From contig NEWT02000019.1 in NCBI GenBank assembly GCA_002869925.2, positions 1 to 64,000 of the forward strand: 64,000 nucleotides of DNA, in the 5' to 3' direction. Position 1 is the first letter of the stretch; each line of letters begins with the position of its first letter. A program made the translations under genes and the position numbers. Positions 31,996 through 36,972 of the stretch are shown in pieces. The stretch is from Nitrospira sp. CG24A. GTDB lineage: Bacteria; Nitrospirota; Nitrospiria; Nitrospirales; Nitrospiraceae. The notes beneath the pieces were generated by a model that saw only the letters and a list, made by a program, of their open reading frames with translations, searched no databases and was not told where the DNA came from.

Positions 31996-32667
31996 CTACC
32001 TAACCTTAGAGAAGTCGGCAGCAATTCTTGCCTCAGTTCCATCTTGAAGATTCACGGCGAAAACTGAGGCGGCCGTGGGATCGAATGTTTCATAGGCAAA
32101 GAGCGCGGTAAAGCGTGATCGATAGGTTGGTCCGGCTCCCTCATTCTTTCGGCCACGTTCGGATTTTCCAATATCGATGGGCTTGATCCTCTTGGAGCCT
32201 TGTTGTAATTCGATCACGGCGCCTTCTGCAAAATATTCATCGTCGCCACACAGCTGAACCTCGATCTCCATATTGGGCATGTCAACGACTTTCTTGATGA
32301 ACTCCTCGGGCATGCGCACATCCATTTTTCGCTTCTTAGACTCCGCCGCCTCTTGTCGGCCAAAGGCTTCAAGTCGATAGCGTTTGGTCCGGAGGATCGC
32401 ACTGGCTCCGCAGGGATCTTTCTCCGGATCGGCGCCCACGCGCGTGACCAGCGAGGCTTGCTGGAGGACCTTCCTGACGTCCTCCGGGGTGTTGGCCTTC
32501 TCCATCGGCGCCCGCCCGGATTCCAACGCCTTCTGCGCCTCTTCAGCTGAAAGCTTCACCTCGATCGCGGAGACCGGCTGGAGCGCCACAACTGTCAATA
32601 GCCCCAAGACCGCACAGATGGCAACAACACCGACTCGCGCCGAGGATGTCAGGTATCGCACGCTCAT
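31996..32667 (-). CDS. Exported protein of unknown function
   Basis: 223 residues from ATG 32667, which has GGAGGGAGTC directly upstream. Signal peptide: basic N-terminus, VGVVAICAVLGLLTVVAL, cleavage near VSA-IE. The mature protein has a helical, Lys/Glu-rich first half (EEAQKALESGRAPMEKAN, FGRQEAAESKKRKMDVRMP) and a beta-rich second half (MEIEVQLCGDDEYF, FTALFAYETFDPTAAS). Two cysteines (KDPCGAS and QLCGDDE) might pair in the periplasm. No family recognised. It lies 68 nt downstream of maf on the same strand and may share its transcript. Confidence 0.75.
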   Translation of the reverse strand: MSVRYLTSSARVGVVAICAVLGLLTVVALQPVSAIEVKLSAEEAQKALESGRAPMEKANTPEDVRKVLQQASLVTRVGADPEKDPCGASAILRTKRYRLEAFGRQEAAESKKRKMDVRMPEEFIKKVVDMPNMEIEVQLCGDDEYFAEGAVIELQQGSKRIKPIDIGKSERGRKNEGAGPTYRSRFTALFAYETFDPTAASVFAVNLQDGTEARIAADFSKVR

Positions 32668-32735
32668 GACTCCCTCCGTGTACAAGCAGAGACTGATGAG
32701 GCGGCATTGTACGGAAGCTCCCTACCCCTTTGCAA

Positions 32736-33368
32736 TTACACTGAGAAGCGTGCCCAGTTGGCGTAGGGCTTCATGGCATAGAGTTCGTCGAGATTGATCG
32801 GCACGTTCACGCCAACTTGCAGAAGTAGCTGAGCAACGAGGCGGAGCGGCAAGCCGACCACAGTGGTGAAATCTCCGTCAATGGAATCGATCAGGTTCCC
32901 GCCCACTCCTTGAATCGAATAGGCACCGGCCTTGCCGAGACTTTCCCCTGTCTTGAGATACCGTTCATGCGCTAGTTCATCAAACGGCTTCATTCGAACA
33001 ACGGTCGTAGATAATGCGACCGTATCGATTACGCGAGCTGAGCAGACGACTGCGACCGCCGTATGCACATGATGGTCGCGGCCAGCCAAGCGCCGGAGCA
33101 TCGCACGAGCATCCGCCAGATCGACCGGCTTCCCGATCATGTCATGATCCACCTCAATCACCGTGTCGCTCCCCAACACGATCGCCTCAGGTTCTTGACT
33201 CGCGACCGACTGAGCCTTGCCCCGCGCAAAGAACCGGACCTGCTCGACCGCCAAACGATCGGCCACCAGCCGCTCTTCGAAGATTGGGCTTTTGACGTCG
33301 AAGGGAACACCCAGCAGGGCAAGTAACTCGCGCCGGCGCGGAGAGGTAGAAGCCAGAATGATCGTCAT
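32736..33368 (-). CDS. maf: Maf-like nucleotide pyrophosphatase
   Basis: House-cleaning NTP pyrophosphatase that removes non-canonical or methylated nucleotides (dTTP/UTP or m7GTP type). 210 residues. Signature ILASTSPRRRELLALLGVPF at the N-terminus, then VLGSDTVIEVD, GKPVDLADARAMLRRLAGRDH and AYSIQGVGGNLIDSIDGDFT, VVGLPL. The AYSIQG-type motif and the glutamine suit the YhdE (dTTP/UTP) subgroup. The start codon is directly adjacent to the dus stop codon, the third gene of an MNIO-dus-maf operon. Confidence 0.94.
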   Translation of the reverse strand: MTIILASTSPRRRELLALLGVPFDVKSPIFEERLVADRLAVEQVRFFARGKAQSVASQEPEAIVLGSDTVIEVDHDMIGKPVDLADARAMLRRLAGRDHHVHTAVAVVCSARVIDTVALSTTVVRMKPFDELAHERYLKTGESLGKAGAYSIQGVGGNLIDSIDGDFTTVVGLPLRLVAQLLLQVGVNVPINLDELYAMKPYANWARFSV

Positions 33369-34532
33369 CTACAACGCCGGAGAAGGTTCAACAGAGAGCA
33401 GCATTCGATCGGAGGCCTCGGTGAAACTTGCACAGTGCACATGAAAATCAGCGAGTACCTGTTCCAGGTCAGCGACAGAAGAGACTCGGAACATATTGGC
33501 TCGCAGCGAGGCGGCATGAGGAAACCCTTTGCAGTACCACCCCAGATGTTTGCGCATCCGCCGAAATTGACCCTGTCCACAGGCCGCTTCGAACCGTCTG
33601 GCATGATCGAGCAACATCTCGAAGCGGACGTCGAGCGGCGGCACCCACGGTTCAGGCCCTTCTTCAGACTGATGTTGTGGCAACACTCTTCGCGCGTCCT
33701 CTTTCTGCCGAAAGAACCAGGGCGCTCCAAGCGCGGCTCGCCCAACCAGCACGCCATGGACTCCGGTATCCCTCACGCGACGGATGACATCGTCATAGCT
33801 GTGCACGTCCCCGTTACCGAACAATAGCGTCTCGCTTCCCTTCACAATCTCCGCCGCCCGAGCGATGGCGCTCCAATCTGCTTCCCCTCGATACATTTGC
33901 TGCAAGGTGCGTCCATGGAGAGAAATGACCGCGGGCTGCTCCCTGAGGAGATGTTCGATCCATTCGTCGACGACCACTACGTCGTAGCCGAGGCGTGTCT
34001 TCACAGACAGGGGGATCGTGCGCCGAATGAGCGGGCTGGCATCCTGCCGCTGCTCATTCATCCTCCGAAGCGCCACCACTCTGCCAGGCTTGAGACCTGC
34101 GCCCTCAAGCGTCTGACCAGCCGCCCAATCGGCGATCCCTTGTCGAGCGGCCCGCATAATGGCTTGCGCCACATCCGGTGTTCGGATCAGCCCTGCGCCC
34201 GATCCGGAAGACGCCACACTCCGCGAAGGACAGCCCATATTGATATCTAATCCGTCAAACCCCAACTCACACACGGCGTGAGCGGCCTGATAGAAGAGGT
34301 CCGGCTCTTTTCCATAAAGCTGCGCGACAATCGGCCGCTCAGCTTCGTGATAGATAAGGGAGTCCAACAGGAACTCCGGTCCCCGGCAGACGTCATGCAC
34401 GTGTGTGAATTCCGTGAAGGACACATCCGGTTTCCCGTGCATGGCCACGGTATGGCGAAAGGTGGCATCGGTAACTCCATCCATCGGCGCCATCCCGATG
34501 ACCGGTCTGGGAAGTGATTGCCAGAAACTCAT
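33369..34532 (-). CDS. dus: tRNA-dihydrouridine synthase
   Basis: FMN enzyme reducing specific uridines of tRNA to dihydrouridine. 387 residues. APMDGVTDATFR binds FMN, GFDGLDINMGCPSRSVASSG carries the catalytic Cys, and SVKTRLGYD and SLHGRTLQQMYRGEADW, FGNGDVHSYDD are family motifs. Compared with standard DusB-type proteins there is an extra loop around residues 140-175 (AAGQTLEGAGLKPGRV). The start overlaps the stop of the MNIO gene as ATGA (34529-34532), so the two are translated together. Which uridine it modifies cannot be said. Confidence 0.94.
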   Translation of the reverse strand: MSFWQSLPRPVIGMAPMDGVTDATFRHTVAMHGKPDVSFTEFTHVHDVCRGPEFLLDSLIYHEAERPIVAQLYGKEPDLFYQAAHAVCELGFDGLDINMGCPSRSVASSGSGAGLIRTPDVAQAIMRAARQGIADWAAGQTLEGAGLKPGRVVALRRMNEQRQDASPLIRRTIPLSVKTRLGYDVVVVDEWIEHLLREQPAVISLHGRTLQQMYRGEADWSAIARAAEIVKGSETLLFGNGDVHSYDDVIRRVRDTGVHGVLVGRAALGAPWFFRQKEDARRVLPQHQSEEGPEPWVPPLDVRFEMLLDHARRFEAACGQGQFRRMRKHLGWYCKGFPHAASLRANMFRVSSVADLEQVLADFHVHCASFTEASDRMLLSVEPSPAL

Positions 34533-36034
34533 TGTATCCGTTCCATTTCCACCACCGGTTCCACCACTTCATTCGCCTCAGCATAGGCCTGGCGCAAGAT
34601 ATCACATTCCTGTTGTGCGCAGCCCTGTAGGTCCAATGCACGTTCCGTCACAAATTCGCAAAATCGTTCGATCTTCAGGAGGAAGAAATCATACGAGTGC
34701 GTAAGCGGTCGTGGGGACCGAAACCAGAAGGCGACAAACTCTGTCAGACAGACACCCCGTTCCGCTAAAGCCCGGCAGGTCTGTGGAAACATCTCGGCAA
34801 GGTCTCCTCCCCAATGGAGAATCTCATAGGGGAGATAGACCATGCGGTAACGAGTTATACCGATCGCTTCGGCGGCTGCGTCCTGCCATTCCGGCCCTGT
34901 CGCGGGAGCATGCCCTGAGATAATTTGCGCATAGCGCGTATAATCGTCATGTAGCTGCTGTCGGTCTGACTGGCACACCGGCACCTGGACAGAAATCGGA
35001 TGGGGCGCCGGCTCCATTGAGTGTTCTAGAGAAGTTCCTCTCGCCATCGTCTGCTGAACGACGGGGGAAAAACGCCGAACAGCCTCTGCATACTCCCCCA
35101 CGATCATCTCAATCGGCTTGGTGTCCACTTCAAGCGCCACCGCCCGGAGACTCACGAGGTTCGAATGGGCCAGAACCTGTTCGAGCATGGTGAGGAGGAT
35201 CGACGGAATCGGAGCCGCATGCGCGTCGATCCATTCAGGAAGCTCCTCTCCCGAGGTTGACTGACCAATCGACTCGTGACAGGCTAACCCTGCGATGTGG
35301 ATTTCGACGACTCGATCCAGAGGAAACTCATCGAGGAACTCCCCGACGAATCGTTCAAGCGACATCCGTCGGCAGGCAGTGGTATAGCGATAGACCGTCC
35401 AGAGATGCCCGATGTCCAGCACGAGGCCACAGGGTACCGACCCTGCGACAAGCCCAAAAAAATAGGGGATCGATATCGTGCCCGCGAAAAAATATGTGAG
35501 CGGCGGCATCTCCAAGAGGAAGAGCGGCACCGCCCCATCTGCTCGGCGGTTCTGCCGATCCATCATCTGCAGAACCGCCGCGATGTTGGCAGCCACCACC
35601 TCAGCACTCAACCGCGTATAGAGTGGTGGGACATACGTACCGAACGAATAACCCGCCATCTGCTTCATCGCACATTCATGATTCAGCCAGAGGCTCTGTA
35701 TACTGTTGAGTTGCAGAACCATCTCGTCCACGTCCTGCTGAAAGAACGGAGAGGCTTGAACGTCCGGCTGAGTGATCCACAACCCCTCCCCATGGTATGC
35801 CAACGATATATCCGGCATCGCCTGTCGAACCGTTGACAGTGCAGCCGCCGTTGCCTTAAAGACTTCAAGATAGCCTGGCTGGAGTCCTCGTTCTTTGAGT
35901 GTGTTCACCAGCTCGAACAGGTTGGGAGAATAGACGTCGACTGACAGCCCCATTCCCAGCGAAGGAATGTTCCTGAGGCGGCGCTGAAAGTCCTGTTGAA
36001 CAAAACCGGAATCAGGCATAGGATCAACTCTCAT
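34529..36034 (-). CDS. DUF692/MNIO-type iron oxidase fused to a C-terminal partner-like domain
   Basis: 501 residues. Residues about 25-310 follow the DUF692 (multinuclear non-heme iron-dependent oxidative enzyme, MNIO) TIM barrel, with all expected metal-binding positions: His81 (LAYHGEGL), His119 (WLNHECA), Glu175 (LLEMPPLTY), Asp207/His210 (LDIGHLW), Glu244/His246 (EIHIAGL), Asp270/His272 (IDAHAAPIP) and Glu302 (ALEVD). Known members (MbnB, TglH type) modify cysteines of peptides. Residues about 365-495 form a second domain (ITRYRMVYLPYEILHWGG, LAEMFPQTCRALAERG) that resembles the DUF2063-like partner proteins of MNIOs; this is an inference from pattern only. No precursor peptide gene was seen next to it. 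It overlaps dus by 4 nt. ATG 36019 is an alternative start. Confidence 0.8.
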   Translation of the reverse strand: MRVDPMPDSGFVQQDFQRRLRNIPSLGMGLSVDVYSPNLFELVNTLKERGLQPGYLEVFKATAAALSTVRQAMPDISLAYHGEGLWITQPDVQASPFFQQDVDEMVLQLNSIQSLWLNHECAMKQMAGYSFGTYVPPLYTRLSAEVVAANIAAVLQMMDRQNRRADGAVPLFLLEMPPLTYFFAGTISIPYFFGLVAGSVPCGLVLDIGHLWTVYRYTTACRRMSLERFVGEFLDEFPLDRVVEIHIAGLACHESIGQSTSGEELPEWIDAHAAPIPSILLTMLEQVLAHSNLVSLRAVALEVDTKPIEMIVGEYAEAVRRFSPVVQQTMARGTSLEHSMEPAPHPISVQVPVCQSDRQQLHDDYTRYAQIISGHAPATGPEWQDAAAEAIGITRYRMVYLPYEILHWGGDLAEMFPQTCRALAERGVCLTEFVAFWFRSPRPLTHSYDFFLLKIERFCEFVTERALDLQGCAQQECDILRQAYAEANEVVEPVVEMERIQ

Positions 36035-36195
36035 ACTGTACTGACAATTGGCCTAGTCTATTCGCCGAACTCCTTGTTTGACAAGGGAAGCCCGATTCAT
36101 AGGCAAGAGGAAGCCGTCTGCTATACTTGGCGTACATCGCCAGGGGCGGGCCCTCATGAATCGGGCAGGCATCAATCGAGGGAGTGCTCGAGCCC

Positions 36196-36972
36196 ATGAT
36201 GAACGACGATGACAAGTCCGTGAAGACGACACCGCTTATACCCACGATGGTTGCCCATATGATGACACCAGGGGTTGTACAGATTCCAGGGGACGTCTCA
36301 GTCAGTGAGGCAGCCATGTTGCTTGAGCGAGAGCAGGCGCCCTGTCTGCTTATCAAGGATACCGACACACAGTTCGGCATTATGACGCCAACCGACATCG
36401 TCAAAAAAGTTGTCGCTCAGGGACTCGAACCGCACGAGATCGAAGTCCGGACGATCATGACACGGCCGGTACAATTCATCGAATACGATGAGGCCATAAC
36501 AGAGGCCTCGATACTCATGATGGCCACAGGCGCCTCCCTCTTAATTGTCACCAAACAGCACCAGCCGGTCGGGGTGCTCAGCGCACAAGACGTGCTGCTC
36601 AACCCACCCAGACGGAGCACGAGAATTCCCGTCGTGGTGAGTGTGGTTGGACAAGCCCCGGAACCGGGGCTCAACTATAACGCCATCATCACCCAACTGA
36701 GCCATGCTGGAGGGTTGATCGAATCGGCAACAAAGCTCACGCCAAAGGCAAACGTCGTACTGGCCTTTTCCATTTCCGGTCAAAATACGCCTCTGACCAT
36801 TCGAGGAAAGGTGTTGGCCAGTGAACCGCCTCACGCAAAACCCGATGACACATCAGGCGAGACCCGTATCTGGCGCGTCGATATTCAGTTCACTGACCTC
36901 TCATCGCCCGACCTTGCGCGGATCAGAGCCTGGGCGCTTCAGACAATGCCCCCCTCACCCCATCTCTCTTAA
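36196..36972 (+). CDS. CBS-pair protein with PilZ-like C-terminal domain
   Basis: 258 residues. Two CBS motifs (about 17-70 and 80-135; MVAHMMTPGVVQIPGDVSVS, VRTIMTRPVQFIEYDEAITE) form a nucleotide-binding Bateman module. It is followed by a PilZ-like domain beginning RRSTRIPVVVSV; the RxxxR part is present, but the second PilZ motif (D/NxSxxG) reads QLSHAGG, so cyclic-di-GMP binding is uncertain. Start: ATG 36196 or 36199 follows GAGGGAG at a usable distance; a GTG at 36184 is too close to it. It is divergent from the MNIO gene, sharing a 160-nt promoter region. Confidence 0.85.
   Translation: MMNDDDKSVKTTPLIPTMVAHMMTPGVVQIPGDVSVSEAAMLLEREQAPCLLIKDTDTQFGIMTPTDIVKKVVAQGLEPHEIEVRTIMTRPVQFIEYDEAITEASILMMATGASLLIVTKQHQPVGVLSAQDVLLNPPRRSTRIPVVVSVVGQAPEPGLNYNAIITQLSHAGGLIESATKLTPKANVVLAFSISGQNTPLTIRGKVLASEPPHAKPDDTSGETRIWRVDIQFTDLSSPDLARIRAWALQTMPPSPHLS

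Follow-up and report, generated by a model that had tools for sequence, protein, structure and literature searches.

The question raised by this locus is whether an MNIO (DUF692) enzyme of Nitrospira carries within its own chain the kind of helper that other MNIOs possess as a separate protein, and, if so, what it might modify. The gene lies at positions 34529 to 36034 on the minus strand of the window, by which we mean the whole stretch of 64,000 nucleotides from Nitrospira sp. CG24A that was analysed, and encodes 501 amino acids comprising an MNIO with a fused C-terminal helical domain. The limits of the reading frame are exactly those given in a preliminary description of this DNA; the likelier start codon is Met6 (36019), where the alignments of homologues begin. 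We found no paper in the open-access literature that joins MNIO or DUF692 with Nitrospira, Nitrospirota or Leptospirillum, and Nitrospira is absent from the main text of a 2025 survey of the MNIO family (PMC12452194).

The window protein is an MNIO. Its only credible match in Pfam is PF05114 (MbnB_TglH_ChrH), which covers residues 60-311 with 41.7 bits (E 1.1e-10) against a curated cut-off of 25 bits, and the barrel, when compared by hhalign with bufferin-type (BufB-type) MNIOs from related genomes, gives an E-value of 1.3e-15. AlphaFold2, using 33 homologues, models the full chain with a pLDDT of 88 and a pTM of 0.89 as an alpha/beta barrel to which an all-helical domain (residues 355-488) is appended. 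In the Foldseek ranking TglH stands first (E 3e-10) and MbnB occupies the next six places, followed by endonuclease IV, with D-psicose epimerase folds also placed after the MNIOs; the top seven matches comprise 8hi7_B, 7dz9, 7fc0, 7tcr and 7tcw. Recognition of a DUF692-like half in the preliminary description is thereby borne out, and its TIM barrel, defined by PF05114, hhalign, Foldseek and ligand conservation, can be placed at residues 20-315 (35090 to 35977, minus strand). The protein nonetheless falls far short of the NCBIfam equivalog cut-offs for ApyH (40.2 of 400 bits), BufB (34.6 of 310), ChrH (17.1 of 600) and HvfB (15.1 of 360), which sets it outside the described subfamilies. A profile search of the whole genome returned this one MNIO and no other.

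Ten residues had been listed as metal positions, and nine of these coincide with ligand positions and are conserved. The count covers 54 homologues drawn from five families, among which H81, E175, D207, H210, H246, D270, H272 and E302 are invariant, while H119 is present in 52 of the 54; the tenth residue, E244, is not at a ligand position and is replaced by Gln in nine homologues. By alignment, H210, D270 and H272 occupy the places of N175, D242 and H244 in HvfB, which form its third iron site, so that site 3 would here be composed of His/Asp/His and not Asn/Asp/His. We also note Cys121 (codon 35672-35674, minus strand), which adjoins the ligand H119 and is invariant in all 54 homologues; it is not a known MNIO ligand.

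Beyond the barrel, the end of a long helix leads into a variable and partly disordered linker (residues 316-354; 34973 to 35089, minus strand). That this linker is real, as previously supposed, is indicated both by a pLDDT of about 55 in the block 341-350 and by the dN/dS of the stretch 331-355, which exceeded that of both flanking domains in six of six comparisons. The domain that follows is all-helical and extends over residues 355-490 (34565 to 34972, minus strand), about 135 residues and thus close to the size first proposed; its limits rest on the model, conservation, co-occurrence and dN/dS. Four of its residues, G410, D449, K454 and E476, are invariant, and its dN/dS (0.13-0.36) is low, indicating purifying selection here as well as in the barrel (approximately 0.15-0.28).

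The C-terminal domain does not belong to either family in which the preliminary description had sought it. None of the 33 members examined had a Pfam match beyond chance in this region, NCBIfam contained no family matched by it, and hhalign comparison with DUF2063 gave a probability of 0.3-0.4%, which leaves no case for a DUF2063 domain. Nor is it an RRE, since the predicted structure contains no beta strand in residues 355-490, whether the full chain or the domain alone is modelled. Sequence searches of the PDB with C-terminal profiles gave only chance-level matches, and Foldseek against the PDB gave none of significance; TglI (8hi7_A) had the highest TM-score (0.41) among the 49 chains listed, albeit with an E-value of 6.1, so the modelled likeness to TglI is suggestive only. 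When modelled alone the domain reaches a pLDDT of 81, and within the full chain it scores higher, as one would anticipate for a domain packed against the barrel.

The two halves belong together. Among 296 Nitrospirota genomes, a search with the whole protein found matches in 107 and the C-terminal profile in 106, one per genome; a marginal match in one genome (G210, E 0.009) aside, every C-terminal match lies either within the reading frame of an MNIO or, in a single case, directly behind it, and the domain was never found without the enzyme. The single case is a draft genome (G306, locus L151) in which an MNIO of 314 amino acids and a C-terminal domain of 156 amino acids each have their own gene, with 28 bases shared between the two, the break falling within the linker and a GGAG preceding the second start. 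This split may have arisen by frameshift, but, as the genes are arranged, it has the appearance of an enzyme-partner pair. The fused protein occurs in nearly all bacteria of the Nitrospira family and in a distant second class of the same phylum. Phylogenetically, the fused sequences form a group of their own, distinct from the bufferin-type MNIOs of that phylum (support 100/99) and, less firmly (90/91), from a distantly related plasmid MNIO; a search of plasmids yielded only canonical MNIOs of about 25% identity, covering the barrel portion. Several Nitrospirota possess a separate bufferin cluster in addition, which means that the fused MNIO is not their bufferin enzyme. Such clusters, with a DUF2063 protein, were seen in 10 of 148 sampled Nitrospirota genomes (L166-L175), and in most of them a bufferin-like precursor and a DoxX-like gene accompany a separate MNIO.

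The surroundings of the gene were said to show translational coupling to dus and maf, and the linkage is real. The start of a tRNA-dihydrouridine synthase gene (dus; 33369 to 34532, minus strand) overlaps the MNIO stop by four bases, a Maf-like nucleotide pyrophosphatase gene (32736 to 33368, minus strand) begins directly after the dus stop, and the block closes with a conserved secreted protein lacking any Pfam match (31996 to 32685, minus strand). Across 80 loci from named genomes of Nitrospira type this order is nearly invariant, the gaps lying mostly at contig ends. Elsewhere, judging from translated N-termini, the fused MNIO keeps other company: in other families of the order it follows gltB-gltD-like genes (L118-L120 and L161) or stands beside a putative pseudouridine synthase (L116), and in the second class (family f21, 21 genomes), which we take to be probably Leptospirillum and its relatives, it lies by putative type II secretion genes (e.g., L152) and TPR genes. 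At L164 (6576-7073, minus strand; genome G321) the MNIO has decayed to 166 amino acids while dus is intact and the gene for the secreted protein is retained.

Several incidental features of these neighbourhoods may be recorded. The decayed gene at L164 stands in front of dus, in a genome from the same family as the window's, and the four loci with gltB-gltD-like genes, which belong to one family of the order, have a coiled-coil lipoprotein downstream on the opposite strand. The match of the Dus protein to its family is broken into two stretches, which points to an insertion at approximately residues 133-172, and its score lies under the DusB equivalog cut-off. The divergent neighbour at 36184-36972 (plus strand), conserved in the block, combines CBS domains and then a PilZ domain in one protein. 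The secreted protein shows 66-99% identity across Nitrospira-type loci, above the conservation of the MNIO, and has two conserved Cys, in DPCG and QLCGDDEYF; it occurs across the order, with a weak second paralogue at G000:C3:7857-8432.

What, then, could be the substrate? It was originally thought not to be encoded next door, and we agree, there being no conserved small ORF near the fused MNIO among the 80 Nitrospira-type loci. The secreted protein downstream of maf was considered and rejected; it is present in genomes of the order that have no MNIO, and outside the family, where both occur, they are unlinked. Bufferin machinery was likewise discounted for the window genome, which has no DUF2282, no DUF2063 and a single MNIO. 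Proteins with the ChrH-type ending CPxCGxG number zero in this genome and gave scattered matches in 4 of 41 relatives, fewer than a reversed control pattern yields. In family f21, by contrast with the Nitrospira-type loci, two leads emerge. One is a secreted peptide of about 100 amino acids with a strongly conserved core, CNHH[TS][KR]YY[KR]RHHRCYP, in a His-rich tail; this core was found in 19 of the 21 f21 genomes and was absent from the remaining 275, and in 17 of those 19 the peptide is encoded on the contig of the MNIO and in the same orientation, 0.4 to 7.5 kb upstream of it (L152:6810-7223, L165:5700-6113, L156:4474-4782, L157:136-486, L159:449-877 and L160:388-690 on the plus strand; L153:10625-10924 and L155:9674-9985 on the minus strand). 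It is a possible RiPP or metal-binding peptide. The other is a lipoprotein with TTMCPxxG and SF(L/M)xC motifs, directly after the MNIO in 6 of the 10 f21 loci read (L154:8416-9258, L157:7803-8201, L158:4319-4825, L159:8101-8610 and L160:7922-8440, plus strand; L153:6592-7488, minus strand); its homologues number zero in 41 relatives, a set that contains no positive control. MNIO substrates often carry Sec or lipoprotein signals together with key Cys residues (PMC12452194, PMC12636315), features that both proteins fit, and we regard them as candidate substrates, while recognising that shared ancestry inside the family could also account for the synteny.

Our essential contention, which we consider probable, if by no means secure, is that this is an active MNIO with its helper subunit built into the chain. 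In the mechanism that we infer, the barrel would hold a two- or three-iron centre, at sites 1 and 2 and at a site 3 formed by H210, D270 and H272. Packed on this barrel, the helical domain at the C-terminus would serve it as TglI, HvfC or MelHc serve separate MNIOs, both by holding the substrate and by helping the cluster to become reactive. The enzyme would use O2 to oxidise residues, Cys being the likeliest, in a peptide or protein whose gene lies in another part of the genome. A built-in partner had been proposed at the outset, with DUF2063 and RRE as the domains to look for; the module is neither of these, it shows no sequence link to any partner family, and its likeness to a partner depends on the weak TglI match. 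What stands is a dedicated module, always found with the enzyme and once as a gene of its own, and a built-in partner is plausible. The same failure of the domain to match DUF2063, RRE, Pfam or NCBIfam families, and the weakness of the TglI match, would suit an active MNIO whose C-terminal domain is no partner at all, but a clade-specific module for dimerisation, stability or targeting. We consider this unlikely, if deserving of serious attention, given the strict co-occurrence of domain and enzyme, the separate overlapping gene at L151, and a domain that is strongly conserved and models better together with the barrel.

There are two further explanations. Endonuclease IV has a ligand set similar to that of MNIOs, and its fold and that of D-psicose epimerase do come after the MNIOs in the Foldseek ranking, so the protein might be a relative of endonuclease IV or of sugar isomerases in which MNIO-like ligands support another reaction; we give this very little credence, as PF05114 alone is credible in Pfam, bufferin-type MNIOs are matched so strongly by profile, and MNIOs come first by fold. 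The coupling to dus and maf had been read as a hint of a housekeeping role, namely that the enzyme acts on tRNA or nucleotides jointly with Dus and Maf, and the retention of the operon in essentially all Nitrospiraceae loci, with neighbours in the window spaced by four bases or fewer, speaks for it. However, the linkage is confined to one family and replaced by other settings outside it, while at L164 the MNIO has decayed and its neighbours persist; moreover, the characterised members of PF05114 have so far acted on peptides (PMC12452194). The hint does not survive this comparison and a joint housekeeping role is highly improbable; the arrangement looks like a convenient operon and not a functional clue, with Dus probably an operon neighbour that is functionally unrelated to the MNIO. 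Returning to the enzyme with a built-in helper, a family-wide MNIO that has no neighbouring precursor raises the question of whether ordinary cell proteins are modified by MNIOs. It is conceivable, if rather doubtful, that the Nitrospirota have inherited vertically, from ancient times, a protein-modifying oxidase with a conserved cellular protein, and not a dedicated RiPP precursor, as its target, to which the Leptospirillum-like class would have added lineage-specific secreted Cys/His peptides.

The structural features of this protein have analogues among described systems, the closest published of which is the group of ChrH/DybH and MelH-MelHc. Members of the ChrH subfamily have a C-terminal helical bundle, which in Cyanobacteriota is encoded as a protein of its own, MelHc; this binds MelH and is required for its activity (PMC12636315). 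Both there and here a TIM-barrel MNIO is joined by an all-helical C-terminal domain, fused and separate forms exist, and no DUF2063 partner is found nearby; the likeness of the bundles is one of architecture (all-helical, fused or split). Yet the NCBIfam model of ChrH matches no more than a portion of the barrel, far under its cut-off, and the genome of the window has neither a protein ending in CPxCGxG nor an adjacent precursor. With TglHI and MbnBC the Nitrospira enzyme shares its barrel fold and ligand layout, and its C-terminal domain has a weak structural likeness to TglI, but it is one chain instead of two and is unaccompanied by an RRE or an adjacent precursor. The barrel is homologous to those of BufBC and HvfBC, keeping the Asp and His of site 3 but with His210 where HvfB carries Asn175; the fusion lacks DUF2063, and genomes that encode it may also carry a separate bufferin cluster. 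An extra fused domain is likewise found in MovX and in MNIO-nitroreductase fusions (PMC12452194), where the addition is either an RRE of winged-helix type or a nitroreductase, while here it is a helical bundle without a match in Pfam or NCBIfam.

A further comparison is with an artificial system. Because an MNIO and its partner bind each other weakly, such pairs are difficult to work with, and an HvfB-HvfC fusion was built by hand to overcome this; the man-made fusion is highly active, and the mixed-valent iron state depends on the HvfC partner (PMC13419390). The Nitrospira enzyme would be a natural one-chain version of such a pair, nearly universal in Nitrospiraceae, and a convenient model in which to study what the partner does.
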